IMG/VR virus record: IMGVR_UViG_3300032215_000682
Span: 1-64,000 of that record
DNA: 64,000 nucleotides
Direction: 5' to 3' (one strand)
Source of the DNA: a virus
The notes beneath the pieces are model-generated. The model worked only from the letters and a program-made list of their open reading frames with translations, was not told where the DNA came from and ran no database searches. Of the stretch, positions 6,270 to 22,018 are shown piece by piece; the first letter of the stretch is position 1, and each line of letters opens with the position of its first letter. The position numbers were made by a program, and so were the translations under genes.

Positions 6270-6551
6270 ATGAAAAAATATTTAACATTCATTTGTAATA
6301 CTTATTATCCTTTAGGAGGTTTTAGTGATTTTTATAAATCTTTTGACACTTTAGAAGATTTTTATAATGATATTATAATACTAGGATTAAGAGAAGATGG
6401 TAGTGGTGTTATTCAAGTGAAAGAAAATTTTATTTCTACTTATGAATTAGATTGTAAATTTTATGATAGTGATTACTTTGGAAAAATTCAAATAGTAGAT
6501 AGAGATACTTTTGAAATAATAGCTATTCCTAAAAGTTGGCTAAAAGATTGA
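6270..6551 (+). CDS. small unknown protein (93 aa)
   Basis: Starts 1 nt after the amidoligase stop and so belongs to the same transcription unit. Mixed alpha/beta with many aromatic residues (TYYPLGGFSDFYKSFDTLEDFYND) and a strand-rich C-terminal half. No family recognised. It is the last gene before the TTGAA-type element that begins to appear in front of genes from 6.5 kb onward. Confidence 0.6.
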   Translation: MKKYLTFICNTYYPLGGFSDFYKSFDTLEDFYNDIIILGLREDGSGVIQVKENFISTYELDCKFYDSDYFGKIQIVDRDTFEIIAIPKSWLKD

Positions 6552-6557
6552 AAATAA
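6548..6557 (+). promoter_or_regulatory. TTGAA element, 24 nt before start
   Basis: TTGAAAATAA, overlapping the stop of the 93-aa gene; the TTG start of the HNH gene follows at 6572. The same 10-mer occurs at 6971, 12195 and 15232 at almost the same distance from a start. Confidence 0.5.
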
Positions 6558-6571
6558 CATAAAATAAAATA

Positions 6572-6994
6572 TTGTCAAAAAAGAAAATAGAAAAGGTAGA
6601 AACATTGAAGAAAAGTAGATATACTACAAATAAAACCATAAATAGTAATACTATGACTTCTTCAATGTTTTTTTCATGGCTTCGCAGTGGATTAAGGAAA
6701 TTAACAGTAAGAGGCTGGAAACCAATTAATGAGTGTAGACAAGAGGCTAAAATTCCTTATGTAGGAGATAATAAAAGAATGAAGTGGCTTTATGTATGCA
6801 ATGAATGTAAAGAAGCTTTTCCAGATAAAGAAATAAGTGTCCACCATATAAAACCTGTTGGATCATTATTATCTTTTGAAGACCTTCCACAATTTTGCAA
6901 AAATCTATTTTGTGAAAAAGAAGGATTGAAAGTACTTTGCACTTCCTGTCATACAAAAGAACATGAAAAATTGAAAATAAATAAAGAAAAATAA
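6572..6994 (+). CDS. HNH-type nuclease-like protein
   Basis: Protein of 140 aa with a TTG start, chosen because no ATG lies nearby in frame and the TTGAA element sits 24 nt upstream. The C-terminal half is an HNH domain with zinc-binding cysteines: CNECKEAF (about residues 75-82), VHHIKP (the catalytic His pair, about 91-96), then CKNLFC, CTSCH and the closing HTKEHEK. The family nicks or cuts DNA; in phages such proteins are homing endonucleases or packaging/recombination helpers. The N-terminal half is basic and may bind DNA. The last base of the stop codon is shared with the next start (TAATG). Confidence 0.75.
   Translation: MSKKKIEKVETLKKSRYTTNKTINSNTMTSSMFFSWLRSGLRKLTVRGWKPINECRQEAKIPYVGDNKRMKWLYVCNECKEAFPDKEISVHHIKPVGSLLSFEDLPQFCKNLFCEKEGLKVLCTSCHTKEHEKLKINKEK
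6971..6980 (+). promoter_or_regulatory. TTGAA element, 23 nt before start
   Basis: TTGAAAATAA inside the end of the HNH coding sequence, followed by an A-rich stretch and the ATG at 6994. Confidence 0.45.
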
Positions 6995-7422
6995 TGAAAA
7001 AACAATTTGTTAATTATAAAACAGCTTTAAAATTAAAAGAATTAGGATTTGATGAAGAATGTTTTAGTATATACAATACTGATGATAACTCTTTAATTAC
7101 ACCTATTATACATTCTGGAAAATTTGGAGAATTTGCTCAACATGATACTATTTATTATGATTGTTTTGTAAAAACTATAATAGGAGTAAAAGCACCTCTA
7201 TATCAACAAGTAGTGGATTGGTTTAGAGAAGAACATAATATTATTATTACAATAGAATATCTTTATACAGATAAAAATAATATAGATTGGTTTACTGATG
7301 GTTTAATTTATGATGAAGCTATAGAATTTGATGATGGTATTAACTATAAAGATTATTATAAAGCTTTAAATAAAGGAATAGAAACAGCAATTGAAGTTTT
7401 AGAAAAAAGAAATAAAATATGA
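6994..7422 (+). CDS. phage protein of unknown function (142 aa)
   Basis: Begins MKKQFVNYKTALKLKELGFDEECFSIY and contains APLYQQVVDWFREEHNIII followed by a late helix YKALNKGIETAIEVLEKR. This plan (short N-terminal helix naming a column-like residue pattern, a WxREKxN helix, and a C-terminal EAxxxGIxxAIxxLE helix) is common in small proteins of Bacteroidetes phages and mobile elements, none with an assigned function that I can name. It overlaps the following nuclease gene by 4 nt (ATGA). Confidence 0.65.
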   Translation: MKKQFVNYKTALKLKELGFDEECFSIYNTDDNSLITPIIHSGKFGEFAQHDTIYYDCFVKTIIGVKAPLYQQVVDWFREEHNIIITIEYLYTDKNNIDWFTDGLIYDEAIEFDDGINYKDYYKALNKGIETAIEVLEKRNKI

Positions 7423-8372
7423 ATTATTTTGAAATAAAAGCTCTTTCATTTTCTAGTTTAAGACTTCTTCAACAATCTCCCTCATTATTTTATAATATGA
7501 AGGATAAAAAACCAGCATCTGAAGCTTTAACATTGGGTACAATTGTTGACCATGTTTTGACAGAAGGAATGGAAACATTTAATGATTTATTCATATTAAT
7601 AAAAGCTAAAGAACCAACAGGACTTATGCTTAATTATGTAAATTGTTTATTAAATAATGGAGAAGATTATGAACAAGCATATACATGTAGTGGTTTTAAG
7701 CAAAATCCAGCTTCTATAAGAGAGAAATTTGAGAAAGAACACTTAGACTACTACAATGAAAAAAAAGAGCTTAAAACAGGACTATTGCTCTACACACAGG
7801 AACAATTAGACACAGCTAAAAGTATTGTTGATTCTTTAAATTCCATAGAAACAATAAGAAATTGTTTTATTGCTCTTGAAAATGAAGAAATATATAAACA
7901 ATTAGAAATATTTTGGGAATATAAAGGTGTAAAGTTAAAATCTAAACTTGATGTTTGTAAAATTAATAAGACATTAAAGAAAATAACTATTATTGATTTA
8001 AAAACAACAGGCTTTTCTGTAGATTCATTTAAAGAATCAATTGAAAAATATCAATATTGGCTGCAAATGGTAATGTATGGAATGGCTGTATATCAACATT
8101 TTAGCAAAGAAATAGAAGATATTGAAAGTTATGACATAGAATTTAAATGGGTGGTGGAGTCTACAAAATATATAGGAAGTCCTTGTATTTATAAAATGTC
8201 TCAAAAAGATGCTGATAGAGGTGTGCATGGAGGAAAGATTGGAGACAAATATTACAAAGGATTTATAGAACTCATGGATGATTATATGTGGTATGTAGAA
8301 CACAATCAATGGCAAATTCCTAGAAATGTCTATCAATCAAACTTTGAAGTTGAATTAAATGTTTTTAATTGA
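7419..8372 (+). CDS. PD-(D/E)XK exonuclease-like protein
   Basis: Protein of 317 aa resembling the exonuclease VIII / RecB-like phage nuclease group. Signs are LTLGTIVDHVLTEG (about residues 36-49) with the early acidic/His helix, IFWEYKGVKLKSKLDVCKIN carrying the D of the PD motif (about 165-184), the IIDLKTTGF motif (D-x-K, about 192-200) and a YWLQMVMYGMAVY helix (the Q-x-x-x-Y motif, about 213-225). These nucleases resect DNA ends in recombination or degrade host DNA. It ends with a TTGA overlap into the next gene. I saw no partner recombinase in the window; it may lie elsewhere in the genome. Confidence 0.75.
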   Translation: MNYFEIKALSFSSLRLLQQSPSLFYNMKDKKPASEALTLGTIVDHVLTEGMETFNDLFILIKAKEPTGLMLNYVNCLLNNGEDYEQAYTCSGFKQNPASIREKFEKEHLDYYNEKKELKTGLLLYTQEQLDTAKSIVDSLNSIETIRNCFIALENEEIYKQLEIFWEYKGVKLKSKLDVCKINKTLKKITIIDLKTTGFSVDSFKESIEKYQYWLQMVMYGMAVYQHFSKEIEDIESYDIEFKWVVESTKYIGSPCIYKMSQKDADRGVHGGKIGDKYYKGFIELMDDYMWYVEHNQWQIPRNVYQSNFEVELNVFN

Positions 8373-8947
8373 AATTTAATAATACAACAAGATTTGTAAT
8401 GCCTATTATATTTGATGATAGTGTTTTTCAAACATTAACAAGAAAAATAATAGGAATTACATTATTTGATTATTTCTTAATTAATGGATTTAAGAATACA
8501 TATTTAAATGACACCACATATCCATTAGAAAATTGTATATATTTTTATTTTATGCCAGAAGAATGGACACAAAGATTTAAAGAATTTTGTGAAACATTAG
8601 AAGGGCATAAAGAATATAAATGTACATATGATGTGGAAAAAGGTGTTATAATAGTATTTAATATCCCAGAGAAATTTAGAAAAGATGTGGAATTAGTTAA
8701 AGAGGGAAAATATTCTAAAACAAGCCTAGCTTATAAGAAATTATTCCCTCAAAATGTAAAAGATAAAAAAGGAAATAAAACATTATTTGAAATCTGGATG
8801 ATATTAAATAAACATCCACAATTTAAGAAGAGAATGGAAGATAAAGTGGGGCAAAGTATTAATAATGAAGCTGAATTATGGGATGCTTTTAATATTAAAG
8901 ATGAAATAATAAATTATAATGAAGAATTTGTAGACATAAATTTTTAA
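8369..8947 (+). CDS. unknown protein, possible nuclease partner (192 aa)
   Basis: Begins at TTG 8369, overlapping the stop of the nuclease gene; the in-frame ATG at 8399 is an alternative start. Hydrophobic first 40 residues (VMPIIFDDSVFQTLTRKIIGITLFDYFLIN), then a globular middle with VEKGVIIVFNIPEKFRKDVELV and a basic helical C-terminal part. No family recognised. Coupling to the PD-(D/E)XK gene hints at a shared DNA-processing task. Confidence 0.65.
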   Translation: MKFNNTTRFVMPIIFDDSVFQTLTRKIIGITLFDYFLINGFKNTYLNDTTYPLENCIYFYFMPEEWTQRFKEFCETLEGHKEYKCTYDVEKGVIIVFNIPEKFRKDVELVKEGKYSKTSLAYKKLFPQNVKDKKGNKTLFEIWMILNKHPQFKKRMEDKVGQSINNEAELWDAFNIKDEIINYNEEFVDINF

Positions 8948-8963
8948 CCTAAAAATAAGAAAA

Positions 8964-9515
8964 TTGACAGCAGAACAACATATAAGAACAGCATATGGAG
9001 CTAATAAAACAACAACATATGCTAATAGTGAAAGATATTATCAAGAGTATATGGAAAGTAAATGGCCTCCAGCAAAAGAAGAAGATGTTATAAAAAATGC
9101 TATAAAACTGTATAATAAAAGAGAAAATAAATATAATACAAAAAATGTAGACATCATACCTTGGACAGGTCAAGAAAGAATGAATGAAACTGAATATTCT
9201 GCTCATGAAGATGTTATATATTATACTTGTGATAGTTATTATAGAGAATATCAAATAAAACAAAAAACTAGTTATATAACACCATTTTCTACATTTACAT
9301 TTAAAGCTTTAAATAATATTTATAAAAATGATGTTATTGTAATAGAAAATGGTAAATATGAATATAGAGTGAAGGATATTTCTTCTTACATGGTGGATGA
9401 TACACTATTTCATTTAATGAATATTCATGACCCAAGAGAAACTTATCAATTAGACAGAACAGAATTTTTACAACTATTAATTACTAACAATGTACCATAT
9501 CAAAATAGTCTCTAA
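8964..9515 (+). CDS. unknown phage protein (183 aa)
   Basis: TTG start at 8964, reading MTAEQHIRTAYGANKTTTYANSERYYQ. The N-terminal half is polar and helical with many Tyr and Lys; the C-terminal half (about residues 95-175) looks beta-rich, with NDVIVIENGKYEYRVKDISSYM. No domain recognised. Its end overlaps the next reading frame if that gene starts at 9490. Confidence 0.6.
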   Translation: MTAEQHIRTAYGANKTTTYANSERYYQEYMESKWPPAKEEDVIKNAIKLYNKRENKYNTKNVDIIPWTGQERMNETEYSAHEDVIYYTCDSYYREYQIKQKTSYITPFSTFTFKALNNIYKNDVIVIENGKYEYRVKDISSYMVDDTLFHLMNIHDPRETYQLDRTEFLQLLITNNVPYQNSL

Positions 9516-9741
9516 GGATGTTAATATGACACCAAAGCCAAATTTATATTCTTGTAATTTTAAAGGAATTTATAATGATATAGAGTACACTGGAAAAAAA
9601 TACAACTTTCAAATAGTGAAAGTATTACAAAAAAATAATGAATATGCTTATAAAATAAAAATATTAACAAATCTTAGTATAAAACAAGAAGAATATTTTA
9701 TGAGAAATATTTTAAATGATGTAAAAGAAATAACAGCTTGA
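9490..9741 (+). CDS. small basic unknown protein (83 or 71 aa)
   Basis: The frame is open from ATG 9490, which overlaps the previous gene by 26 nt. The ATG at 9526, preceded by a purine-rich TAAGGA, is at least as likely a start and gives 71 aa. Beta-rich and basic (NLYSCNFKGIYNDIEYTGKKYNFQIVKV). Followed directly by a TTGAA element and the ribonucleotide reductase gene. Confidence 0.55.
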   Translation: MYHIKIVSKDVNMTPKPNLYSCNFKGIYNDIEYTGKKYNFQIVKVLQKNNEYAYKIKILTNLSIKQEEYFMRNILNDVKEITA

Positions 9742-9747
9742 AATTAA
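9738..9747 (+). promoter_or_regulatory. TTGAA element, 25 nt before start
   Basis: TTGAAATTAA overlapping the stop of the previous gene, exactly 25 nt before the TTG start of the ribonucleotide reductase. An ATG at 9758 lies between but is out of frame. Confidence 0.5.
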
Positions 9748-9762
9748 AATAATAAAAATGAA

Positions 9763-11982
9763 TTGGATAGAGGAAAAGAATTTCTGTCAGAGCTAAAACT
9801 ATACTCTGATTATATGAAATGGAATGATGAACAAAATAGATATGAAACTTGGGAAGAAGCATGTGATGATGTGTTACACGTTCATTATTCAAAATATGGG
9901 GATAGAGTAAAAAAATATATTGATGAAATATCCCCATTTTATAAAAATAAAGACTTTCTTGTAAGTCAGAGAGCTTTACAATTTAGAAATAAAGAACTTC
10001 TAAAAAATAATTGTAGACTTTATAACTGTTCTGTAGCTTATTGCTATAGTCCAAATGTATTTAAAAAAGGATTTTTTATGCTTCTTAGTGGAGCAGGATT
10101 TGGATTGAATTTAAAGAAAAAATATGTTTCTCAGCTTCCTAAAATTAATAAAAGAGGGAAAGAAACTATTACATTTACAATTCCTGATTCTATTGAAGGA
10201 TGGTGTGAAGCTATACATGTTTTAATAAGCTCTTATTGTATACATTCTTCTTTATATAAAGAATATTATGGAAAGAAGATAAGAATGGATTATTCTCTAA
10301 TTAGAGAAGAAGGTTCTTTTATATCAGGGGGATTTAAAGCTCCAGGGCATAAAGGACTTCAACAATCATTGGAAGCTATAGAAGATTTTATTGAGAAACA
10401 ATTAGGAGAAAATTCTTCAATTATATTTAGATCTTTTATTGCTTATAATATATTTATGCATCTTTCTAACTCTGTACTTTCAGGAGGTGTTAGAAGAAGT
10501 TCTATGAATATTATTATTGATGTAGATGATACAGAAATGGTATATGCTAAAACTGGTAATTGGAGACAAACTAATCCTCATTTTGCTAGAAGTAATAATA
10601 GTGTAGGAATGATGAAACATTCCTTTACTATTGGAGAATTTAAATGGCTATTAGATTTAAATCAAGGAGATAACGATATTGGTTTTGTTCTTTTAGAAAG
10701 TGAAGATCAACTTTTAAATCCTTGTTACGAAATTTCTTTTGATTTCTATAATCAAATAACTGATTATAATGACACTGTTATACAAATGTGTAATTTATGT
10801 GAAAATAATGCTTCTAAATTTAAAGATAAAAATGGTAAGTTTGATGTAAATAAGTTTTATACTATATGTAGAATTTCTACAATAGCAGGAACATTACAAG
10901 CAGGGTATACAGATTTTGCTTATCTTGGAGAACAAACAGAAAGAATTGTTAAAGGAGAGGCTTTATTAGGTGTATCAATTACAGGATGGATGGATTGTTT
11001 GGAACTTTTTAATGAAGAAATTCTTAAAAAAGGAGCTGAAATATGTGTAGAAACAAATAAAGAAGTGGCAGAATTTTTAGGAATTAATTATGCTGCTAGA
11101 ATAACTTGCACAAAACCATCTGGAAATGCTAGTGTTGTTCTTAAAACACCTTCTGGTATTCATCCTGAGCATTCTAAGAGGTATTTTAGAATAATGCAAC
11201 TTAATAAGGAAAATGAAATTTCTAAATGGCTTTTAAAGAATTATCCTGAAATGTTAGAGGAGTCTTCATGGAGTCCTACTAAAACAGATTATGTTGTATA
11301 TGTTCCTTGTGAAAATTCTCCTAATGGTAAATTTAAAGATGATTTAAGAGACATAGATCACTTAGCAATGATAAAATTAGTACAAAATTCATGGGTAGTA
11401 AATGGTAAAAATGCTTCTACAGCTTACAATCCTAAGATTAATCATAATGTGTCTAATACAGTGATGATTGATAATAAAGAAGATGTTATTAAATATATTT
11501 TTGAAAATCAAGATAGTTTTGTAGCTGTTTCATTTCTATCAAGATATGGAGATAAAGAATTTAATCAGGCCCCATTTACTTCTGTACTAGATAGCAGTGA
11601 ACTTTTAGAAAAATATGGAAATGGTGTGTTATTTGCATCAGGACTTATTGTAGATGGACTTCATTATTTTAATAATGATTTATGGACTGCTTGTAAATAT
11701 ATTTCTGAAGGAGAGCTTAATTTAAATGACACTAGAGACAAGGTGTTATTACAAAAAGATTGGCTTAGAAGAGCTAAAAAGTTTGCTAAAAACTATTTTG
11801 GAGGTGATGTTAATAAAACAATTTATTGCATAAAAGATGTCCATTTGTATCATAAATGGTGTAATATAAAAAGAACATTTAAAACTCTTCCTGATTTTAG
11901 TGTTCTATTACCAAAACCTGAGTTTAAAAATATAGATACATTAGGAGCAATAGCTTGCGCTGGAGGAAGTTGTGAAATTTGA
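9763..11982 (+). CDS. rtpR: adenosylcobalamin-dependent ribonucleoside-triphosphate reductase (class II)
   Basis: Protein of 739 aa, the same length as the monomeric Lactobacillus-type enzyme, which reduces NTPs to dNTPs using coenzyme B12. Sequence signs are an early redox cysteine in LKNNCRLYNCSVAYC (about residues 84-98), SGGVRRSSM in the substrate site (about 241-249), the CNLCE active-site loop (Cys343, Cys346), GTLQAGYTDFAYLGE, and the C-terminal pair Cys732/Cys737 in ACAGGSCEI that passes electrons from thioredoxin. Start taken as TTG 9763; the nearby ATG at 9758 is out of frame. It needs host cobalamin and a thioredoxin, neither encoded here. With the MazG-like gene downstream it forms a dNTP-supply set. 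Confidence 0.9.
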   Translation: MDRGKEFLSELKLYSDYMKWNDEQNRYETWEEACDDVLHVHYSKYGDRVKKYIDEISPFYKNKDFLVSQRALQFRNKELLKNNCRLYNCSVAYCYSPNVFKKGFFMLLSGAGFGLNLKKKYVSQLPKINKRGKETITFTIPDSIEGWCEAIHVLISSYCIHSSLYKEYYGKKIRMDYSLIREEGSFISGGFKAPGHKGLQQSLEAIEDFIEKQLGENSSIIFRSFIAYNIFMHLSNSVLSGGVRRSSMNIIIDVDDTEMVYAKTGNWRQTNPHFARSNNSVGMMKHSFTIGEFKWLLDLNQGDNDIGFVLLESEDQLLNPCYEISFDFYNQITDYNDTVIQMCNLCENNASKFKDKNGKFDVNKFYTICRISTIAGTLQAGYTDFAYLGEQTERIVKGEALLGVSITGWMDCLELFNEEILKKGAEICVETNKEVAEFLGINYAARITCTKPSGNASVVLKTPSGIHPEHSKRYFRIMQLNKENEISKWLLKNYPEMLEESSWSPTKTDYVVYVPCENSPNGKFKDDLRDIDHLAMIKLVQNSWVVNGKNASTAYNPKINHNVSNTVMIDNKEDVIKYIFENQDSFVAVSFLSRYGDKEFNQAPFTSVLDSSELLEKYGNGVLFASGLIVDGLHYFNNDLWTACKYISEGELNLNDTRDKVLLQKDWLRRAKKFAKNYFGGDVNKTIYCIKDVHLYHKWCNIKRTFKTLPDFSVLLPKPEFKNIDTLGAIACAGGSCEI

Positions 11983-12001
11983 AGATAAATAATAAATAAA
12001 A

Positions 12002-12223
12002 TTAAGAAAAAGAATATTCTACTTTCACTATAACAAACCTGAAAGCACAAAACAAAATAAACCTCAAGTGACAATTCACTATAAAGGTGTATGTCATATA
12101 GTGGATAATTTAGAATGTAATGTAAATACATTTGGGTATATTAGAAAAGAACAACCTAGGTTTATAATTAAAGGAAAATGTAATGAAATTATTTTTGAAA
12201 ATAAAAAAGCTATAATTAATTGA
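12002..12223 (+). CDS. small open frame without a standard start codon (about 73 aa)
   Basis: The 237 bases between the reductase and the next gene are open in one frame from the TAA at 11993 to a TGA at 12221-12223. The frame contains YNKPESTKQNKPQVTIHYKG and ends GKCNEIIFENKKAIIN, which looks like real protein. There is no ATG, GTG or TTG in frame at the front; ATA at 11996 and TTA at 12002 are the only places that would fit the spacing from the TTGAA-like element at 11979 (23 nt to 12002). Its stop overlaps the following TTG start exactly as other linked genes do here. Either it uses an odd start or a start codon was lost by mutation. Confidence 0.5.
   Translation, partial: LRKRIFYFHYNKPESTKQNKPQVTIHYKGVCHIVDNLECNVNTFGYIRKEQPRFIIKGKCNEIIFENKKAIIN
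12195..12204 (+). promoter_or_regulatory. TTGAA element, 25 nt before start
   Basis: TTGAAAATAA, 25 nt before the TTG at 12220; lies inside the end of the preceding open frame. Confidence 0.5.
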
Positions 12224-12486
12224 AAATCCTAAACATTATAGAAACAACAAGAGGAATAATAAATTCTATAACATCATTTCCTATGGATTATGAACTAGAT
12301 TATATTTTAGATTATGATTCTTATGAAAAAGAAATAGTAAAAAAAGCAGAAAATCTTTTTATTGAGAAAGTTAAACAATTTGATAAGGATATAGATGTTG
12401 AATATTATTTAGAAGAAGCATATTGGGAAGATATGAATGGAAATGAAATTATGTTAATTTGGAGTAATAAAATTGAAAATGACTAA
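12220..12486 (+). CDS. small acidic unknown protein (88 aa)
   Basis: TTG start overlapping the stop of the previous frame (TTGA). Begins KILNIIETTRGIINSITSF, followed by an acidic helical middle (LDYILDYDSYEKEIVKKAENLF) and YYLEEAYWEDMNGNEIMLIWSN. Small acidic phage proteins of this kind are often inhibitors or regulators, but no family is recognised. Confidence 0.6.
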   Translation: MKILNIIETTRGIINSITSFPMDYELDYILDYDSYEKEIVKKAENLFIEKVKQFDKDIDVEYYLEEAYWEDMNGNEIMLIWSNKIEND

Positions 12487-12512
12487 AAAGTCAAAAGTTG
12501 GATTTTAATAAA

Positions 12513-12544
12513 TTAGGAAATGTCAAATTAATTTTGTATCTTTG
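12513..12544 (+). promoter_or_regulatory. TTAGGAA-N17-TATCTTTG promoter
   Basis: TTAGGAA at 12513-12519, 17 nt spacer, TATCTTTG at 12537-12544. The second box fits the Bacteroidetes -7 consensus TAnnTTTG. The ATG of the HNH gene follows after only 5 nt, so the transcript would be leaderless or nearly so. It is the only plus-strand copy of a motif otherwise found before minus-strand genes. Confidence 0.7.
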
Positions 12545-12549
12545 TATTT

Positions 12550-13206
12550 ATGAAAAATTTAATTAGTAAAGAACAAGCTAAATCTTTAAATCAAGTATGG
12601 TATTTTACAGGAAAACCTTGTAAAAATAATCACATTTGTAATAAGTATGTATCTACAGGTGTTTGTTATCAATGTAAAAGAGATAACATGAATAAAGATT
12701 ATTTAAGAAATACTGAAAGAGTTTGTAAAACTAATAACAAGAGTTATAATAAAAATAAAGAAAAAAGAATTAAAAACTCTTTAAATTGGGCTAGTAACAA
12801 TAGAGAGAAATCTAATTTTATAAAAAACAAAAGTAAATTAAAAAATATTCATAAAGTTAGAAAACAAGCTTGTGAATACCAAAAAATAAAAAGACAAGAT
12901 AATTCTACAAGATTATCAAAAAATTTATCTAAAGCTATCTGGAATTGTTTAAAGGCTAGAAAAAATAAACAATCTTGGAAAAATTTAGTAGATTTTACAT
13001 TAGAAGAACTTGTAAGTCATTTACAAAATAGATTTTCAAAAGAAATGACTTGGGAGAATTATGGAAGTTATTGGCATGTAGATCATATTAAACCTTTAAG
13101 TTGGTTTAATTTAGATAAAGAGTTTAAATTGGCATGGTCTTTAGATAATTTACAACCTTTAGAAGCTTCTATAAATTATTCTAAATGTAATAGATATGCA
13201 GGTTAA
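12550..13206 (+). CDS. HNH homing-endonuclease-like protein
   Basis: Protein of 218 aa. Cysteines at GKPCKNNHICNKYVSTGVCYQCK (about residues 19-42) form a zinc-binding head, followed by a long Lys/Asn-rich helical linker. The C-terminal HNH is LVDFTLEELVSHLQNRF, MTWENYG and WHVDHIKPLS (catalytic His pair, about 175-184), then FKLAWSLDNLQPL and a closing Asn/Cys (NYSKCNR). This is the usual layout of free-standing phage HNH endonucleases that spread by cutting alleles lacking them. It carries its own promoter, as a mobile gene would, and interrupts the nucleotide-metabolism block. Confidence 0.85.
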   Translation: MKNLISKEQAKSLNQVWYFTGKPCKNNHICNKYVSTGVCYQCKRDNMNKDYLRNTERVCKTNNKSYNKNKEKRIKNSLNWASNNREKSNFIKNKSKLKNIHKVRKQACEYQKIKRQDNSTRLSKNLSKAIWNCLKARKNKQSWKNLVDFTLEELVSHLQNRFSKEMTWENYGSYWHVDHIKPLSWFNLDKEFKLAWSLDNLQPLEASINYSKCNRYAG

Positions 13207-13216
13207 TTGAAATTAA
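13207..13216 (+). promoter_or_regulatory. TTGAA element, 25 nt before start
   Basis: TTGAAATTAA immediately after the HNH stop, 25 nt before the TTG at 13232. Here the element is fully intergenic, so it is not a by-product of coding sequence. Confidence 0.55.
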
Positions 13217-13231
13217 GTAATAAATAAAAGT

Positions 13232-13904: not shown

Positions 13905-13938
13905 CAAAAATTGAAATTTATATAAATAAATAAAATAA

Positions 13939-14109
13939 ATGAATAATAAAGCAATAGAACTATTACAAGATGTACTTCTTTGTACATTTAATGAAGAAGA
14001 ACAAGATAAGGAAATTTATGAATATCTTAAACAAGAAGGAAGTGTTCCTGAAGATTTTATTCCTTATTGGGAAGGAGAAGATGATTTAATTGAAAGTGAT
14101 GAAGACTAA
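13939..14109 (+). CDS. small acidic protein (56 aa)
   Basis: ATG at 13939 and TAA at 14107-14109. The product, MNNKAIELLQDVLLCTFN through WEGEDDLIESDED, is a short amphipathic helix followed by a strongly acidic tail. A TTGAAATTTA element lies 28 nt upstream, and a hairpin terminator follows, so it appears to be the last gene of a transcription unit. Function unknown. Confidence 0.65.
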   Translation: MNNKAIELLQDVLLCTFNEEEQDKEIYEYLKQEGSVPEDFIPYWEGEDDLIESDED

Positions 14110-14118
14110 ATAAAAAAT

Positions 14119-14151
14119 AAGAGAGCTTTGAAATATAGGCTCTCTTTTAAA
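14119..14151 (+). terminator. hairpin terminator
   Basis: AAGAGAGC at 14119-14126 pairs perfectly with GCTCTCTT at 14139-14146 across a 12-nt loop and runs into TTAAATT. It lies 9 nt after the stop of the 56-aa gene and 8 nt before the next start. Confidence 0.6.
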
Positions 14152-14159
14152 TTAATAAT

Positions 14160-14849
14160 ATGAAGATTTTGGCCATTAGTGACACACATGCACAACATTC
14201 TCATTTTCCAAAAGATTATTTTGATGGTATAGACATGGTAATACATGCAGGAGATGAAAGTAATTATAGAGATCCTATAATGAATGAATTTGAATGTTTT
14301 GATTTTTTGAATTGGTATAAAAATATACCAGTGAAGTATAAAATATTTGTAGCAGGTAATCATAGTTTAGCTATATTTAATAAAAGAATACCTAGAAAGT
14401 TTATAGAAGATATGGGTGTAATATATCTTGAAAATGAATCTGTAGAAATAGAAGGAATAAATATTTGGGGAAGTCCTTATTCTCCTACATTTGGAGATTG
14501 GTGGTTTATGAAAGCAAGAGATAAAATAAATGATATATGGAAAAATATTCCTGAAAATACAAATATTTTAATAACACATACACCTCCTAAAGGAATATTA
14601 GATTTATCATTTGATAGAGAAGGAACATTAGAATTTTGTGGATGTAAGTCTCTTATGAGACATGTGGAGAGGGTGCAACCATCTTATCATATATTTGGAC
14701 ATATTCATACTATGGAAGGTGTAATAAATGCTGGAATAAGAACTCTACCATATTTAAAAACTAAATTTATTAATGCTTCTTGTGTTACAGATGGTAAGTT
14801 TAATATGGGACTTTCTAGTATGGGAGAAAAATTTGAATTTAATAAATAA
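14160..14849 (+). CDS. calcineurin-like metallophosphoesterase
   Basis: Protein of 229 aa with all five motif blocks of the superfamily: MKILAISDTHAQH (D-x-H, residues 8-10), HAGDES (GD, about 31-36), VAGNHSLAI (GNH, about 64-72), ILITHTPP (H, about 137-144) and IFGHIHTMEG (G-H-x-H, about 178-187). These bind two metal ions and hydrolyse phosphoesters; related phage enzymes act on nucleotides, 2',3'-cyclic phosphates or DNA ends, and the substrate cannot be read from sequence. It begins right after a hairpin terminator. Confidence 0.85.
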   Translation: MKILAISDTHAQHSHFPKDYFDGIDMVIHAGDESNYRDPIMNEFECFDFLNWYKNIPVKYKIFVAGNHSLAIFNKRIPRKFIEDMGVIYLENESVEIEGINIWGSPYSPTFGDWWFMKARDKINDIWKNIPENTNILITHTPPKGILDLSFDREGTLEFCGCKSLMRHVERVQPSYHIFGHIHTMEGVINAGIRTLPYLKTKFINASCVTDGKFNMGLSSMGEKFEFNK

Positions 14850-14855
14850 AAATAG

Positions 14856-15164: not shown

Positions 15165-15231
15165 TAAATTAGAAAGAAAAGGCTTTGATAAAAAAGCTTC
15201 TTTTAGAAATTTAAAACATAGAATAAAATAA

Positions 15232-15241
15232 TTGAAAATAA
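15232..15241 (+). promoter_or_regulatory. TTGAA element, 25 nt before start
   Basis: TTGAAAATAA in a non-coding stretch, 25 nt before the TTG at 15257. Confidence 0.55.
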
Positions 15242-15256
15242 TTAACAAAAAGTTAA

Positions 15257-16990
15257 TTGAAAACAAAAAAAGAAGGAATTGTAAAAATCTTGTGTTTAGA
15301 TCAAGAGCATAGTGGGAGCAGATTCCACAGATTGGTGCTCCCATACAAAGAATTACAAGGAAAACAAATTGATATAGGAGAAGAAAAAGCTACATTAGAA
15401 ATATCATTTAGACAATGTAATGTATATGAATATGTACTACTAGAAGATGATTTTAAAAATAATGATGTAATTGTAGTGAATTGGGTGTATTTTAATCCAA
15501 TTATAGAAATATCAGAGTGGAAAACTAAATATAATTGTGCTTTAGTGCAGGATATTGATGACTGGATTGAATTACCTAAGTCACATATTAATAGTGGTTC
15601 TAATTATGAGAAACTAATACCTCAAGCTGTAATAGCAGATGTTGTTACAACAAGCACAGAAAGACTATCAGCTCATTTTATACAATTTAATGATATGGTG
15701 TCTATTAGTCCTAATTATTTACCAAATAAAGGACAATTTGTAGAAAAACCTGAAAGAAAAAAAGGAAAAGTGGTATTAGGATTTTGTGGAGGTGTTTCAC
15801 ATTATAATGATTGGATGAGCATTAAAAATGTCATAAACAAAATATGTAATGATAAAACTATACAAGAAAAATGTAAATTTGTATTAGCAGGATATTCTGA
15901 TAATAAATGGTGGAATGAAGTGAAAGCAATGTTTGATAAAAAGAATATTGAATTAGAAATTGTTAATGCTCTTTCTGTTGAAGAGTATATGAAAGCTTAT
16001 GACAGTATTGACATACTTTTAGCCCCTCTAATCCCATCAGAATATGCTGAATGTAAAAGTGCTTTAAAAGTGATAGAATGTGGAATTAAACACATACCAA
16101 TTATAGGTTCTCCTATATATTTAACAAAAGAGGTACCATGTGTATTACCAGCAGATAGTCCTAAAAGCTATTTAGATGCTATTTTAGACCTTATTAATGA
16201 TGATAAGTATATTTCTGTAGGAAAAGAAATGAATGAGGCTGTAATGGCTTTAAATCATTTTGATAAAAGAATAGAAAATCTTGGTTCTATAATAGAATAT
16301 TTAATGAATGAAGATTTGGAAAAGGTACCTGAAAATTTGAAAATTACAGGAATATGTTATAAAGAAGAACAATTTACACCTTTTAACAAATATTTAAATG
16401 TAAATAAAGAATTTCCTTGGAGATTTGAGTATCAAGTGATGCTAAATAAACTTGAAGAAATTAAAGCCTATAAAGAAACAGATTATGTAGGATTTTTGTC
16501 TCATAAATTTCAAACTAAAACAGGAATTCCTGCTAAAGTGTTGTATAAAATGTGGGAAGAAATTCAAAATATTGATGAATATGATTTTGTTAATCTAGCT
16601 CCTACTTATTGGCATTCTGGTAAAGGTTATTTAATCTTTAGTGAAGTACAACATTGTGGGCTTACTAATTTAGTAATAAGAACATGTAATCATTTGGGTA
16701 TTAAATATAATGATAATCCAGAGTGTGTAACATATTCTAATTTCTTTTTAATGAAGAGAGATGTATATATAGATTATTTAGAAAATTATATTATTCCAGC
16801 TATTAAATTTCTTGAAAATGAAATTTGGGAAGATGTTAATAGAGATGCAGGATATGTTGGAGGACTTTCAAGAGAAGAGTTATTTAAAGCTTGTGGATTA
16901 ACACATTATAACTTTTTAACATTTATTCTTGAGAGGCTGGTATTACAATATATTTCTCATAAAAAATTGAAATTTATAAATACAATATAA
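15257..16990 (+). CDS. two-domain glycosyltransferase
   Basis: Protein of 577 aa with a TTG start. The N-terminal GT-B part (about residues 8-355) opens KILCLDQEHSGSRFHRL. It has VVLGFCGGVSHYNDW (about 172-186), where the donor domain begins, and DILLAPLIPSEYAECKSALKVIECG (about 253-277), the GT4-style donor-sugar loop with the E-x7-E relative. The C-terminal part (about 365-577) is separate. Its YSNFFLMKRDVYIDYLENYI and NFLTFILERLVLQYI resemble the end of DUF4422-type GT-A glycosyltransferases. Its last base is the first of the next start codon. It could add two sugars in sequence; the acceptor is unknown. Confidence 0.72.
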   Translation: MKTKKEGIVKILCLDQEHSGSRFHRLVLPYKELQGKQIDIGEEKATLEISFRQCNVYEYVLLEDDFKNNDVIVVNWVYFNPIIEISEWKTKYNCALVQDIDDWIELPKSHINSGSNYEKLIPQAVIADVVTTSTERLSAHFIQFNDMVSISPNYLPNKGQFVEKPERKKGKVVLGFCGGVSHYNDWMSIKNVINKICNDKTIQEKCKFVLAGYSDNKWWNEVKAMFDKKNIELEIVNALSVEEYMKAYDSIDILLAPLIPSEYAECKSALKVIECGIKHIPIIGSPIYLTKEVPCVLPADSPKSYLDAILDLINDDKYISVGKEMNEAVMALNHFDKRIENLGSIIEYLMNEDLEKVPENLKITGICYKEEQFTPFNKYLNVNKEFPWRFEYQVMLNKLEEIKAYKETDYVGFLSHKFQTKTGIPAKVLYKMWEEIQNIDEYDFVNLAPTYWHSGKGYLIFSEVQHCGLTNLVIRTCNHLGIKYNDNPECVTYSNFFLMKRDVYIDYLENYIIPAIKFLENEIWEDVNRDAGYVGGLSREELFKACGLTHYNFLTFILERLVLQYISHKKLKFINTI

Positions 16991-17253
16991 TGATAGAAGA
17001 ATCAGCTAAAAAAGCCAGCTTAATACTAAAAAGAAAATCAGAATTAAATGAAGATTTGTCTAAATTAATGAATCTTAGAGATTTAAATATATTTGTAGAA
17101 GAAAAAACTGAAGAATGTTATCTTTATTATGGATATGGAGATAAACAACACTTGTCTAAAGATTTAAAAGATAAAATAGTAAATCTTCTATTAGAAGAGA
17201 TAAATAAAGAACTTCAAGAATTAGATGGTCAATTGAAAATGTTAAATTGTTAA
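16990..17253 (+). CDS. small coiled-coil protein (87 aa)
   Basis: Starts on the last base of the glycosyltransferase stop (TAATG), with TTGAAATTTA 23 nt upstream. Mostly helical and charged (EESAKKASLILKRKSELNED; LLLEEINKELQELDGQLKML), with a short aromatic break (ECYLYYGYGDKQ). Probably forms a coiled coil. No family recognised. Confidence 0.6.
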   Translation: MIEESAKKASLILKRKSELNEDLSKLMNLRDLNIFVEEKTEECYLYYGYGDKQHLSKDLKDKIVNLLLEEINKELQELDGQLKMLNC

Positions 17254-17254
17254 A

Positions 17255-17446
17255 ATGAATATAACAGGATGGCCTTTAGGAGAAAATGATTTAATAGAAG
17301 CTTATGAGGAGTACATTAAAATTCTTTATAGAAAAATAAATGATATATCAAAAACAGAAAATTATTTAGACTCTAAATTTACAAAAGAAACTATGAAAGC
17401 AAGAAAAAATATTGAAGATATTAAAAAGAAATTAAAAAATGGATAA
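17255..17446 (+). CDS. small helical unknown protein (63 aa)
   Basis: Starts 1 nt after the previous gene and ends 8 nt inside the GT2 gene. Opens MNITGWPLGENDLIEAYEEY and continues as a charged helix. A W-P-x-G-E-x-D-L-I start is seen in small phage proteins, but I cannot assign a function. Confidence 0.6.
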   Translation: MNITGWPLGENDLIEAYEEYIKILYRKINDISKTENYLDSKFTKETMKARKNIEDIKKKLKNG

Positions 17447-18164
17447 TTTATTAGAAGTTTTTGTTACAACATGGAATAATGAAGCTATTATACAAGATTT
17501 TATTGATTGGTACAGAGATAGGATTCCTAATTGTAGGATAACAATGTATGATAATATGTCTTCAGATAACACTGTTGAGATTTGTAAAAATAATGGATGT
17601 AATGTAATATCATTTGATACAAATGGAAAAATGGATGAATCTAAATTAATGGAAATTAGAAATAATTGTTGGAAAGAATCTAAATGTGAATATGTATGTA
17701 TTGTTGATTCAGATGAACTTGTAGATATAAATGAAGAAATTCTTAAAGAATTTAAATTCAATATTATTAAATGTACAGGATATGAAATGTTTGGAAATGA
17801 GGGAGATAAATTAGAAGATTTAGTGTATGGTGTACCTAGCATTGGCTATTCTAAAACAGCTATTTTCCACAAAGATTCTATTGAAAAAATAAATTATGGA
17901 GCAGGAAGTCATTCCTGTTCTCCTATTTCTACTAATAATAAAGGTGTAAGAGAACAATTAGTATATAATGATGTTGAAATACCTCTTTATCATACTAAAT
18001 GGAGAAGTTGGTCTAATGGTATTGGAAAAGCTCATGAAATAGCTCCTAGAAGAAGTGAGGGGGATATATTAAAAGGATGGAATTTCCATTATTCATTACA
18101 TGATAATGTTCATATGGATTATTATAGGTCAGGAATGAAAAATAGAATTAAAATAAAAGAATGA
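17439..18164 (+). CDS. family 2-like glycosyltransferase
   Basis: Protein of 241 aa. Starts at the ATG overlapping the previous stop. GT-A features are LLEVFVTTWNNEAIIQDFIDWY at the N-terminus, YDNMSSDNTVEICKNNG (the N-x-S-x-D-x-T nucleotide-sugar motif, about residues 36-52) and VCIVDSDELVDINEEIL (the D-x-D metal site, about 86-102). The C-terminal part contains HTKWRSW and a final basic region. Glycosyltransferases of this type use UDP- or GDP-sugars. Between a two-domain transferase and a GT11-like gene, it should take part in building a short glycan. Confidence 0.8.
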   Translation: MDNLLEVFVTTWNNEAIIQDFIDWYRDRIPNCRITMYDNMSSDNTVEICKNNGCNVISFDTNGKMDESKLMEIRNNCWKESKCEYVCIVDSDELVDINEEILKEFKFNIIKCTGYEMFGNEGDKLEDLVYGVPSIGYSKTAIFHKDSIEKINYGAGSHSCSPISTNNKGVREQLVYNDVEIPLYHTKWRSWSNGIGKAHEIAPRRSEGDILKGWNFHYSLHDNVHMDYYRSGMKNRIKIKE

Positions 18165-18430
18165 AAGAAGAAATAGAAAGAATAATTAAAGAATTTTCTT
18201 TTCAATATGATGATAATGCTGAAGAAATTGTTATAAGTAAGGTAGGTTTAAAAACTACTTGTACAAACTTAGCTAGATTCATACAAGAAAGAGAAGAAAA
18301 AGCCTTTATAATAGGAGCATTAATTAAAGATGAATATAGTGTTATTAATAATGACGGTGAAATTGTAGATGATCCCTATATTATAGCTAATTTTGAAGAT
18401 TATAAAAATTCAAAAGAATATTCTTTATGA
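18161..18430 (+). CDS. small unknown protein (89 aa)
   Basis: Overlaps the GT2 gene by 4 nt (ATGA) and the next gene by 4 nt. Helical N-terminal half (MKEEIERIIKEFSFQYDDN) and a short strand-rich end (SVINNDGEIVDDPYIIANF). No recognised family. Confidence 0.55.
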   Translation: MKEEIERIIKEFSFQYDDNAEEIVISKVGLKTTCTNLARFIQEREEKAFIIGALIKDEYSVINNDGEIVDDPYIIANFEDYKNSKEYSL

Positions 18431-18663
18431 GTTTGTTTGAACAATATAAAAAGTATTATTACATTTATAATCATGCTTTATTAAAATTAAATAATATAAA
18501 ATATAGAAAAACAATGATAAATAAAATAAAAGAAAAAGATGTTTCAATAGAACAATTGGAGCATAGTACATCATTTCTTCTTATTATAGGAGATAAACAA
18601 CAATGGGTTAGTGTTAGAGACTTGTTGAATTTGAAAATAGTGCTAGATCAATGGAATGACTAA
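18427..18663 (+). CDS. small unknown protein (78 aa)
   Basis: Overlaps both neighbours (ATGA at the front, 8 nt at the end). Basic and helical start (FEQYKKYYYIYNHALLKLN), then an amphipathic region ending LKIVLDQWND. Function unknown. Confidence 0.55.
   Translation: MSLFEQYKKYYYIYNHALLKLNNIKYRKTMINKIKEKDVSIEQLEHSTSFLLIIGDKQQWVSVRDLLNLKIVLDQWND
18631..18640 (+). promoter_or_regulatory. TTGAA element, 25 nt before start
   Basis: TTGAAAATAG inside the end of the 78-aa gene, exactly 25 nt before the ATG at 18656. Confidence 0.45.
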
Positions 18664-18823
18664 AGAATATTTAAAAACATTATGTGAAAAAATAGAATCT
18701 TCTAATATGGATTCAAAATGGAAATATGTTGTACAATTACAACTAAAAAACTATTTTAAATCAACAGAAGATATAAATAAATTGAAAAAAGCATTTAATA
18801 TAATTAAAGAATATGGAGAATAG
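18656..18823 (+). CDS. small helical protein (55 aa)
   Basis: ATG 18656 to TAG 18821-18823. Reads MTKEYLKTLCEKIESSNMDS and ends KKAFNIIKEYGE. Two helices, Lys-rich. It overlaps the previous gene by 8 nt and the next by 11 nt, filling the only gap between them, which supports it as real. It is also a clear case of TAG used as a stop. Confidence 0.65.
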   Translation: MTKEYLKTLCEKIESSNMDSKWKYVVQLQLKNYFKSTEDINKLKKAFNIIKEYGE

Positions 18824-19175
18824 AAAACAGAAAAAAGATTGGCTTAATATTCCAGATGATTGGGAAGAAATATTAGAAGGATCTTTTGAGCAGGTAATAA
18901 CAAGAATTAGAGATTTAAAGCAAAATTGTATTGATAGATATGGAGATAAATATTCTAATTATGAAATTTCTACAGATTATTATGATGAAGGAGGATTTAA
19001 AGTAGAAGTATATGGAATTAGAGAAGAAAATGATGCTGAATTAGCTAATAGACTTGCTTCTGAAGAAAGAATAAGAATTCAACAAAAGAAGAATAATATA
19101 TTAAGAGAACAAAAAGAATTACAAGAATATCAAAGATTAAAATTAAAATATGAGTGCACCAATAATACACAGTAA
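18813..19175 (+). CDS. unknown protein with C-terminal coiled coil (120 aa)
   Basis: Begins MENRKQKKDWLNIPDDWEEI, then a helix and a short aromatic acidic stretch (YEISTDYYDEGGFKVEVYG, about residues 50-68), then a long charged helix (about 75-115) rich in Glu, Gln, Arg and Lys that should form a coiled coil. Overlaps the next gene by 26 nt. Confidence 0.6.
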   Translation: MENRKQKKDWLNIPDDWEEILEGSFEQVITRIRDLKQNCIDRYGDKYSNYEISTDYYDEGGFKVEVYGIREENDAELANRLASEERIRIQQKKNNILREQKELQEYQRLKLKYECTNNTQ

Positions 19176-19539
19176 ATCCTCACAGAAAAAATGGGGTGGA
19201 AAAGTAGAAGATTATTTATCAATTCATGAATTAATGGACTCTACTAAAGGAGCTTTTCCAGATAACAGGCATAGATGTATTACACATAACATTTGGTTTT
19301 GTGTTAATATAATTCCTAGAATATTTGGACAGGAAGCCATTAATTCAGATGGAAAATATTATATACCTAAGGATGTAGCAGAATTACATATTTTAGAAGA
19401 TTATAGAATGAAATTTATTCCTAGTATTCAAGATTATTTAGAAAATATGGAAATGAAACCTTGGATGCAAAATGGACTAGGAGAAATTCCTAATAGTAGA
19501 AATAAATTGAAAATGGTAGAATTAAATATAATAGACTAA
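19150..19539 (+). CDS. DUF6915-like phage protein
   Basis: Protein of 129 aa. The opening IIHSKSSQKKWGGKVEDYLSIHELMDSTKGAFPDNRHRCITHN matches my memory of the DUF6915 pattern: H-x-x-S-S-x-x-x-W-G-G-x-x-E-D-Y-x-x-I-H, then a D-x-S-K element and D-x-R-H-R-x-x-x-H. The conserved His and Asp residues suggest a metal site, but the function is unknown. It starts inside the previous gene, and its last base is the first of the next start. Confidence 0.65.
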   Translation: MSAPIIHSKSSQKKWGGKVEDYLSIHELMDSTKGAFPDNRHRCITHNIWFCVNIIPRIFGQEAINSDGKYYIPKDVAELHILEDYRMKFIPSIQDYLENMEMKPWMQNGLGEIPNSRNKLKMVELNIID

Positions 19540-20189
19540 TGAGAACAAAAGAAATAATAGAAAAAGAACTTGATGATTTAATAAAAGAGCAAAACACTAG
19601 GTGGTATGCATTATTAAAAAAATGTCCAGGATTTTGTGATTTTTCAGATGAAGACTTTGATTCTAATGAAGGGTTAGAAAATATTAAAAAAAGAAGACTG
19701 GGGGATAATTATAAAGAATATTTAGAAATAATGAATTATAACAATTTATTCTCACCTTTATATCAAGAATTAGATGCTCTTAATTTTGAAAAAGCAAAAG
19801 AAATATCTCCAACAGTGTTAGATAAATCTGTAGCTTTAGAAGTACATAGTATATTATTAGAACAAGATTTTTATAATAAACATATTAGCAAAGATGAGGA
19901 TTTTAATTATGCTAAAATATTATATTCTTGTTGCTATAATGATAATTGGAATGATTTAATTGTAAAAGAAATTCATTTATTAAAAGATTTAGGAAAAGAT
20001 ACAATTCCTTTAAAAATAATTGAAATATATAAAGAAGAAAATCTTCCTAATGATGAATATGAATCACAATATAAAGATCATTCTAGCATTGAAATTGAAA
20101 TGTATCATTGTTCTATTTATTCTTTTAATGATAATTGGCAATCATTAATTATAACAAAAGAAAGAATGTTTAATTTAAAGAAAATATGA
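19539..20189 (+). CDS. unknown acidic protein (216 aa)
   Basis: Starts on the last base of the previous stop (TAATG) and ends with an ATGA overlap. Opens MRTKEIIEKELDDLIKEQNTRWYALLKK. The second half (ILYSCCYNDNWNDLIVKEIHLLKDLGKDTIPLKIIEIYKEE, then HSSIEIEMYHCSIYSFNDNW) contains two N-D-N-W pieces about 100 residues apart, perhaps a duplicated unit. No family recognised. Confidence 0.6.
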   Translation: MRTKEIIEKELDDLIKEQNTRWYALLKKCPGFCDFSDEDFDSNEGLENIKKRRLGDNYKEYLEIMNYNNLFSPLYQELDALNFEKAKEISPTVLDKSVALEVHSILLEQDFYNKHISKDEDFNYAKILYSCCYNDNWNDLIVKEIHLLKDLGKDTIPLKIIEIYKEENLPNDEYESQYKDHSSIEIEMYHCSIYSFNDNWQSLIITKERMFNLKKI

Positions 20190-20536
20190 CAGAAAAAGAA
20201 ATAAAAGATAAAATAGAAGTTTTAAAAAAATCATTTCCTAATTTAGATGCTATATTAGTAGATTATAATGGAAGTGGAGATAGTTTTGATAGTTTTAATT
20301 ACATAAGAGGATTAAAAGAAAAAGAAGAAATTAATATTAATATTGATTATGATACAGATTTTAATTCTTTACTGTGGGAAATATTAGATAAATCAGATGC
20401 AGATTTTAATAATGAAGGTAGTGAAGGTACTATCACTATAGATTTAAAAAATATAAATGTCATTTGTGAAAATTATTATATTGAATACACAAGAGTATTA
20501 TCTGGTAAGTTTTTCCTTTTAAATAATAAAGAATGA
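20186..20536 (+). CDS. DUF6878-like protein
   Basis: Protein of 116 aa. The pattern is AILVDYNGSGDSFDSFN (V-x-Y-x-G-S-G-D-S, about residues 21-37), then NIDYDTDFNSLLWEIL, DADFNNEGSEGTITIDLKN and YYIEYT. The order G-S-G-D-S, then N-x-x-G-S-E-G-x-x-x-I-D, then Y-x-x-Y fits what I recall of DUF6878, small proteins of unknown role found on plasmids and phages. Overlaps both neighbours by 4 nt. Confidence 0.6.
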   Translation: MTEKEIKDKIEVLKKSFPNLDAILVDYNGSGDSFDSFNYIRGLKEKEEININIDYDTDFNSLLWEILDKSDADFNNEGSEGTITIDLKNINVICENYYIEYTRVLSGKFFLLNNKE

Positions 20537-21381
20537 TTTTATACAAAGATTGGGGAAAGCACATAAGGTTGGGTAATTGGCTTTTTATTTATTCAGGACT
20601 TTCTGCTATATCTTATAAAACTGGTAATCCTATGTATTTACCAGAAAATTATTTCTTATGGCAATATTTAAAATATCCTCCAGAATTTGATAATAATATT
20701 TCAGTAGATGAAACATTTCATTTTAGACAAACTAACTATACTAAAGATGAATTTAATTATCTAATAGATTATTTTTCTTTAAATAGAGATAGAAATATAA
20801 ATATAAATTTAGGGTCACATCTTCAATCAGAAAAGTTTATAGAAAGTGATATAGATTATATTAAAACTATAATGCAATTTAAAGAAGAAGAAGTGCAAAA
20901 AGTTAGAAATAAATATTCTCATATTTTAAATAAAAAAACTATTGGAATAGGAATCAGACTTGGAGATTTTGTTAATCATGGATGCTTTTATCAAATACCT
21001 CTAGAATGGTATTTAAAAGCTCTACAAGCTGAGTTTAAAGATTGGATGGACTGTAACATATTATTTTTCTCAGATGACATAGAGAAGCTTAAAACTATAT
21101 TTAAGAGAGAGAATTATTATTTTGCAACACCAAATAATACACATACACATATTGACTCATTTAAGCATTATCATGGTAATCCTATGGAGCAATTTATATT
21201 AGGAACATTATGTCAAGGATTTGTGGGAGGTTCTAGCACCTTTAGCTGGTGGCAAATGTGGTATATACATAATAATGGAGGAAAAGTAGTACATAGTGGA
21301 CAAAACTTAGCTGGAGAATGTTTACAGAAATTTTATAATCCTGATTACTATCCAAAAAACTGGAAATTATTTCCTTGTTAA
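20533..21381 (+). CDS. GT11-like alpha-1,2-fucosyltransferase family protein
   Basis: Protein of 282 aa. RLGNWLFIYSGLSAISYKTG (about residues 12-31) corresponds to the G-x-L-G-N-Q-x-F start of GT11. TIGIGIRLGDFVNHG (about 136-150) is the H-x-R-x-G-D nucleotide-sugar motif with the His replaced by Gly. GGSSTFSWWQMW (about 234-245) matches the S-x-S-T-F-S-W-W block. GT11 enzymes move fucose from GDP-fucose to galactose. It is the third sugar-transfer gene of the cluster, and the missing motif His may mean an altered donor or reduced activity. Overlaps the DUF6878-like gene by 4 nt. Confidence 0.78.
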   Translation: MILYKDWGKHIRLGNWLFIYSGLSAISYKTGNPMYLPENYFLWQYLKYPPEFDNNISVDETFHFRQTNYTKDEFNYLIDYFSLNRDRNININLGSHLQSEKFIESDIDYIKTIMQFKEEEVQKVRNKYSHILNKKTIGIGIRLGDFVNHGCFYQIPLEWYLKALQAEFKDWMDCNILFFSDDIEKLKTIFKRENYYFATPNNTHTHIDSFKHYHGNPMEQFILGTLCQGFVGGSSTFSWWQMWYIHNNGGKVVHSGQNLAGECLQKFYNPDYYPKNWKLFPC

Positions 21382-21440
21382 ACTAATAGAAAACCAAATC
21401 CTCATTAGATTCCTATAAAGGTTTCTTTTGGGGATTTTTA

Positions 21441-21450
21441 TTGAAATTAC
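21441..21450 (+). promoter_or_regulatory. TTGAA element, 25 nt before start
   Basis: TTGAAATTAC, fully intergenic, 25 nt before ATG 21466. The preceding gene ended at 21381, so coding constraint cannot explain it. Confidence 0.55.
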
Positions 21451-21465
21451 AAAAAAATAATTAAT

Positions 21466-21765
21466 ATGAAACAAAACAAACAAAAATTAGATTTTTATTT
21501 TCTTGATGAAGCAAGATTAATAGCTATATCATTACATAAAAAAGAGCAAAATAAACTTCCTAAACTAACATTACCTATATTTAAAAAAATAATAGAAACT
21601 CAATCGCCTTATGCAGGATTATGTGAATTTAACTATTATCTTTCTAAATATTCTATTTCAGATAAAACTAGAAAACAATTAGTTGATCTTGGGTATAATG
21701 TTATTTATATTACTGGAACTCTTACAATACAAATACCTTATGCTCATTATAACTATGGGAAGTAA
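21466..21765 (+). CDS. unknown protein, last gene of the plus-strand block (99 aa)
   Basis: Reads MKQNKQKLDFYFLDEARLIA, with a helical basic first half, SPYAGLCEFNYYLSKYSISD, then a strand-rich end (GYNVIYITGTLTIQIPYAHYNYGK). No family recognised. Preceded by an 84-nt gap containing a TTGAA element and followed by the terminator that ends plus-strand transcription. Confidence 0.6.
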   Translation: MKQNKQKLDFYFLDEARLIAISLHKKEQNKLPKLTLPIFKKIIETQSPYAGLCEFNYYLSKYSISDKTRKQLVDLGYNVIYITGTLTIQIPYAHYNYGK

Positions 21766-21992: not shown

Positions 21993-22018
21993 TTTTGTTT
22001 ATTTATTTATTTATTCAA

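Follow-up and report, generated by a model that had tools for sequence, protein, structure and literature searches.

The viral record IMGVR_UViG_3300032215_000682 comprises 115,636 bases at 26.9% G+C, and the window analysed here is its first 64,000 nucleotides (bases 1-64000). The phage is an uncultured, AT-rich, crAss-like one. Its TerL, portal and capsid-like protein have phage-family matches; among public sequences TerL comes closest to that of Leptolyngbya phage Lbo-JY46 (38%), then to that of the gut phage csAssE-Sib (35%), with Crassvirales next. Our subject is a short TTGAA-based element that recurs at a nearly fixed distance before start codons, chiefly in a block at 6.5-22.4 kb that holds accessory and nucleotide-metabolism genes. 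Genes were called mechanically (simple calls) on a record that may be incomplete.

The element and the genes that carry it

Every copy listed by an earlier, sequence-only reading of this DNA proved to be present. The same holds for the four occurrences of TTGAAAATAA in this role (6548, 6971, 12195 and 15232), for the eight genes with a spacing of exactly 25 nt (8369, 9763, 12220, 13232, 15257, 18656, 21466 and 61298) and for the non-coding copies at 13207, 15232 and 21441. The sites and the associated features are as follows.

6547..6557 (+), ATTGAAAATAA: 24 nt before TTG start 6572, HNH endonuclease gene
6970..6980 (+), ATTGAAAATAA: 23 nt before ATG 6994, within the upstream gene
7390..7400 (+), ATTGAAGTTTT: 28 nt before ATG 7419, exonuclease
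8344..8352 (+), TTGAAGTTG: 25 nt before TTG start 8369
8369 (+), start of TTGAAATTT, a second copy beginning at the TTG itself: 30 nt before alternative ATG 8399
9738..9748 (+), TTGAAATTAAA: 25 nt before TTG start 9763, class II ribonucleotide reductase
12195..12204 (+), TTGAAAATAA: 25 nt before TTG start 12220
13206..13217 (+), ATTGAAATTAAG: non-coding, 25 nt before TTG start 13232, MazG-like
13910..13921 (+), ATTGAAATTTAT: non-coding, 28 nt before ATG 13939
14833..14843 (+), TTGAATTTAAT: 23 nt before ATG 14856
15231..15241 (+), ATTGAAAATAA: non-coding, 25 nt before TTG start 15257, glycosyltransferase
16966..16977 (+), ATTGAAATTTAT: 23 nt before ATG 16990
17232..17242 (+), ATTGAAAATGT: 22 nt before ATG 17255
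17411..17421 (+), ATTGAAGATAT: 27 nt before ATG 17439
18631..18640 (+), TTGAAAATAG: 25 nt before ATG 18656
21440..21450 (+), ATTGAAATTAC: non-coding, 25 nt before ATG 21466, directly 3' of a terminator-like hairpin and U-run
22009..22019 (-), ATTGAATAAAT: 26 nt before ATG 21992
22356..22366 (-), ATTGAATTAAA: 29 nt before ATG 22336
61314..61324 (-), ATTGAAATTTT: 25 nt before ATG 61298, DNA polymerase exonuclease subunit
61329..61336 (-), host-type -7 box: TATCTTTG, from which the transcript is predicted to begin with the A of ATTGAA
32349..45485 (-), putative virion RNA polymerase (vRNAP) with a C-terminal SF1 helicase: GSDFDIDK at residue 3152

Aligned, the copies give the consensus A-TTGAA-A-W-T, with no further conserved column. 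The distance to the start codon is 22-29 nt overall and mostly 24-25 nt. Intergenic ATTGAA copies with a nearby downstream gene all lie 24-28 nt from it, save one at 50 nt, which is part of a hairpin that precedes a promoter. Copies embedded in coding sequence are spaced more loosely than these, and the embedded copies more than 30 nt out (18427, 18813, 19539) are probably due to chance. ATTGAA is found in all three reading frames, and in several genes the upstream stop codon is the TGA of TTGAA (6549-6551, 9739-9741). The TTTGAA before gene 14160 sits in a hairpin loop.

The positional pattern is statistically solid. When all hexamers before start codons of the 115.6-kb genome were scanned with no motif assumed, ATTGAA ranked first, preceding 16 genes at -30..-23 against 0.99 expected (P 2e-14). 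Comparison with shuffled sequence, which the sequence-only reading had proposed, bore it out: 20 occurrences were observed, against 2.8 +/- 1.5 in 400 dinucleotide shuffles with a maximum of 8. A de novo motif search by expectation maximization converged on the general A-rich leader, so position-resolved word counts were used instead. Within genes, ATTGAA is somewhat depleted relative to codon-preserving shuffles (75 vs 100), which decides nothing because many AT-rich hexamers are more depleted.

The element is largely restricted to one block. TTGAA at -29..-22 precedes 17 of the 29 genes at 6.5-22.4 kb, none of the seven at 0-6.5 kb, one of the 38 on the virion/vRNAP arm at 22.4-83.3 kb (the DNA polymerase exonuclease gene 61298) and 7/62 beyond 83.3 kb, so the scarcity before virion genes reported earlier is confirmed. 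Most motif genes belong to the non-virion arm, gene class being taken here from position and function rather than from expression. The block differs from the rest of the genome (17/29 vs 8/107, Fisher P 1.3e-8) and from the 22.4-83.3 kb arm (P 2e-7).

Enrichment in related phages, on which the sequence-only reading had itself staked its refutation, was not found. Pooled across 22 crAss-like genomes (18 from IMG/VR plus Lbo-JY46, phi14:2, crAss001 and csAssE-Sib), ATTGAA precedes 24 genes against about 21 expected, with 0 vs 2.1 expected in phi14:2. A search for closer relatives using TerL, portal, ribonucleotide reductase and a 1966-aa protein turned up only G022 and G023. The latter, the closest relative (168.9 kb; TerL 57%), shows no ATTGAA enrichment either; its relatives of block genes (a metallophosphoesterase, two glycosyltransferases and a small gene) have ATG starts with no ATTGAA before them. 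Nor is there enrichment in the relatives of equal G+C, G004 (26.7%) and G023 (26.9%). All of these relatives are distant ones.

Other words occur at a comparable place in the relatives. ATTAAC peaks 21-26 nt before starts in G004, G009, G010 and phi14:2, and is found before 44/1644 genes on the non-structural strand and 20/1066 on the structural strand of the relatives; it is possibly a counterpart element. The ATTAAC/TAACAA words (-26..-21, several relatives), considered as possible equivalents, were set aside as less specific to a gene class and partly derived from stop codons.

Transcription machinery, host-type boxes and hairpins

The 4378-aa protein encoded at 32349-45485 (-) contains EITAIAGSDFDIDK, which resembles EIPTKTGSDFDIDK of a phi14:2 protein; the active-site motif GSDFDIDK is the same in both. 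At its C-terminus it is fused to a Dda/RecD-like SF1 helicase. On the strength of the shared motif and the fused helicase, this protein is very probably the virion RNA polymerase, of the crAss type, even though a match to the solved vRNAP over its whole length did not emerge from sequence searches. Searches for sigma70 regions 2 and 4 were negative for this genome. In phi14:2, as published (PMC10136315), the vRNAP produces rifampicin-resistant early and replication transcripts, and late genes are probably transcribed by host RNA polymerase. Other phage RNA polymerases, those of P23-45 and AR9, use single-block AT-rich or short promoters (PMC10770324, PMC5312081). In the literature consulted, which did not include the phi14:2 polymerase paper, no promoter word for the vRNAP of a crAss-like phage was found.

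For host transcription we considered the Bacteroidota sigma-A -7 box TAnnTTTG, its position taken from F. psychrophilum (PMC9723704). By the rule used for predicted starts, likewise based on F. psychrophilum, the transcript begins 12 nt after the first T of the box, whose end is thus some 5 nt short of the transcript start. TAnnTTTG in the relatives shows a broad peak at -40..-22 and a sharp peak at -12, with boxes starting exactly 12 nt before the start codon in 37 genes (22 relatives pooled), as would be expected of leaderless messages. At -40..-22 it precedes 85/1066 genes on the structural strand vs 69/1644 on the other. Most relatives searched have an excess of the box at -31..-21, but this phage does not (2 vs 1.6); four of its boxes lie near genes, at -13, -35, -35 and -38. 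One TAnnTTTG, at 12537+, stands 13 nt before 12550.

The element itself does not match TAnnTTTG, and motif genes other than 61298 have no such box at a usable distance. At 61298 the copy does lie just downstream of a host-type box, as had been pointed out: ATTGAAATTTT is 12 nt downstream of the start of TATCTTTG (61336). Two further promoter candidates were rejected. Sites with sigma-70 -35/-10 pairing are no commoner than in shuffles, and for the F. psychrophilum box TAnnTTGY the TA is missing at the required offset in the aligned copies. Upstream boxes like GGAAATGTCAAA(TTAA) were seen before TAnnTTTG at 12507-12544 (+) of the window and at 89193-89323 (-) of G000:C1, and looser GGAAATGTCAAA-like boxes precede 22629-, 47159- and 61336-.

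Hairpins were also surveyed; an Rfam search of the window gave zero matches. Terminator-like structures, each a hairpin with a U-run, end just 6-29 nt before the next start at 14119-14147 (+) and 21396-21439 (+) of the window, and the same layout occurs at L009:2054-2077 (-) and L011:7789-7830 (+). Such an arrangement leaves little room for an ordinary promoter, and the element at 21440 lies in such a place, directly 3' of its hairpin and 25 nt before the next gene. Terminators between motif genes were dropped as evidence, being too few and having similar hairpins as counterparts before genes without the motif. A separate 13-bp hairpin, AAACATTGAAGAA...TTCTTCAATGTTT with a U-run (z -4.3), lies at 6600-6672 (+), where the HNH endonuclease gene begins, within the gene itself; it is terminator- or attenuator-like.

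Possible roles: promoter element or leader signal

We give about an even chance to the reading of A-TTGAA-A-W-T as a core promoter, or an element marking start sites, that is peculiar to the lineage of this crAss-like phage. We infer that it would act on transcription and that its reader would be either an RNA polymerase of the phage, with the co-injected vRNAP as the obvious candidate, or a host polymerase modified by the phage. Within the 6.5-22.4 kb block transcription would then begin at or near the element, so that leaders would be very short and many genes would have a transcript to themselves; a few early or middle genes elsewhere may be served in the same way. Late virion genes, which lack the element, would depend on host-type TAnnTTTG promoters or on read-through.

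The restriction to one gene class and the near-absence from virion genes favour a promoter, since capsid genes too should carry any signal of general use in translation; TTAAAA near -16, the usual initiation signal, does occur on both arms of the relatives. As with known phage RNA polymerase promoters, a motif is enriched at a fixed place before one class of genes in a genome that encodes its own RNA polymerase. Host-type boxes in the relatives often stand at a similar distance before genes, which also counts for a promoter. The negative sigma70 searches, the vRNAP-made early and replication transcripts of phi14:2 and the precedents of P23-45 and AR9 point the same way. Of the two roles that the sequence-only reading had put forward, promoter for the phage's own polymerase and translation signal replacing Shine-Dalgarno, the evidence leans to the first. 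Replacement of Shine-Dalgarno is unsupported because motif genes keep the A-rich initiation region (A at -14..-11: 0.63 vs 0.61 in the others), and that earlier interpretation stands in part.

Several observations pull away from a promoter. Between genes the spacing varies less, at 24-28 nt, than it does for the TAnnTTTG boxes of relatives. Many copies precede genes that overlap in closely packed arrays, which hardly seem to need a promoter for each gene. At 89-115 kb the motif is missing from most replication genes. No phage with a related polymerase has kept it among the 22 genomes and G023, which is weak evidence because promoter words may change between lineages. Terminator-like hairpins also lie 6-29 nt before genes without the element, so the argument from the 21440 hairpin is weak. 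The host promoters of 61298 and 22594 are predicted to give transcripts whose first bases (+/- a base) are ATTGAA for the former and ATTGAT for the latter, and all six TTG-start motif genes have a spacing of 24-25 nt (P 0.005, post hoc).

Much of this would suit a translation leader, in which UUGAA near the 5' end of a leader of about 25 nt aids a Shine-Dalgarno-blind Bacteroidota ribosome or a phage factor and lets several genes retain weak UUG starts; we regard this as possible, at somewhat under a one-in-three likelihood in our judgement. The tight intergenic distance, the copies before overlapping genes, the two host-type promoters and the uniform spacing of TTG-start genes all speak for it, as do the start codons themselves. 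Non-ATG start candidates make up 7/29 genes in the block vs 3/107 elsewhere, and are over-represented in motif genes (6/25 vs 4/111, P 0.003, post hoc); inside the block alone the TTG association is not significant (P 0.19). Relatives lend support to some of these TTG starts: the initiator Met of a relative's ribonucleotide reductase aligns with TTG 9763, homologue similarity for gene 8369 reaches upstream of ATG 8399, and the N-termini of relatives align with glycosyltransferase TTG 15257. For HNH endonuclease TTG 6572 the support is mixed, one of three relatives' N-termini fitting well and another starting at ATG 6653. The ribonucleotide reductase and a glycosyltransferase have ATG in relatives where this phage has TTG. 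Set against a leader signal are its lack before nearly all virion genes and before the seven genes at 0-6.5 kb, where a signal for all classes should appear, the intact A-rich initiation region, the 22-29 nt spread of ATG-start genes and the want of a known ribosomal partner for UUGAA. In its boldest form, (A)UUGAAAWU would be a 5'-terminal leader word, produced by host promoters as well as phage start sites, that serves as a phage-specific initiation signal and enables UUG starts throughout the block. We consider this version unlikely. Should the element act on translation at all, it would represent a novel type of aid to initiation among bacteria whose ribosomes disregard Shine-Dalgarno sequences.

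Processing of RNA is less probable still. A nuclease cutting a polycistronic message at AUUGAA would yield single-gene messages with 25-nt leaders, and would account both for copies inside upstream coding regions and for the constant placing ahead of start codons; the block has no more terminator-like sites than shuffles do, which also fits. However, no cleavage enzyme or precedent was identified here, and the intergenic copies share no common hairpin. That the word is a functionless by-product of TGA stops, Ile/Leu-Glu/Lys codons and A-rich leaders in a 27% G+C genome, as the TGA stops within several copies might suggest, is very improbable, being largely refuted by the unbiased scan, the shuffles, the non-coding copies at 24-28 nt, the use of all three frames and the relatives of equal G+C.

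Comparison with known systems

The question of a vRNAP promoter word becomes directly testable with this phage, whose genome has both such a polymerase and a short, strongly enriched candidate. The word's apparent absence from the closest available relative, where parts of the block are retained, hints at a regulatory code that turns over rapidly. Among eukaryotic viruses, the mimivirus motif AAAATTGA and the A/T-rich early promoters of poxviruses have a look-alike core, A-ATTGA-A, and class-specific use. These viruses are unrelated, and the mimivirus motif may stand anywhere within 150 nt upstream, in contrast to the fixed 25 nt here; we treat the likeness as chance. The Bacteroidota sigma-A box TAnnTTTG is often 22-28 nt before starts in the relatives and differs in sequence. 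The Bacteroidota initiation region, with A at -3, -6 and -12/-13 (described as an A-rich region in F. johnsoniae, PMC6847099), is found in the same leaders, downstream of the element, and equally in genes without it. Early transcription by the vRNAP of phi14:2, in Crassvirales, has GSDFDIDK in common with this phage, whereas ATTGAA is not enriched there. The promoters of P23-45 (an AT-rich motif) and AR9 (AACA-6N-T(A/G) and AAATATATATTAT-6N-G) are tied to mapped transcript ends, and the element described here is known from its sequence and its tight distance to start codons. They resemble it in being short, single-block, AT-rich motifs before one class of genes, in phages that likewise encode their own DxDxD-type RNA polymerase.

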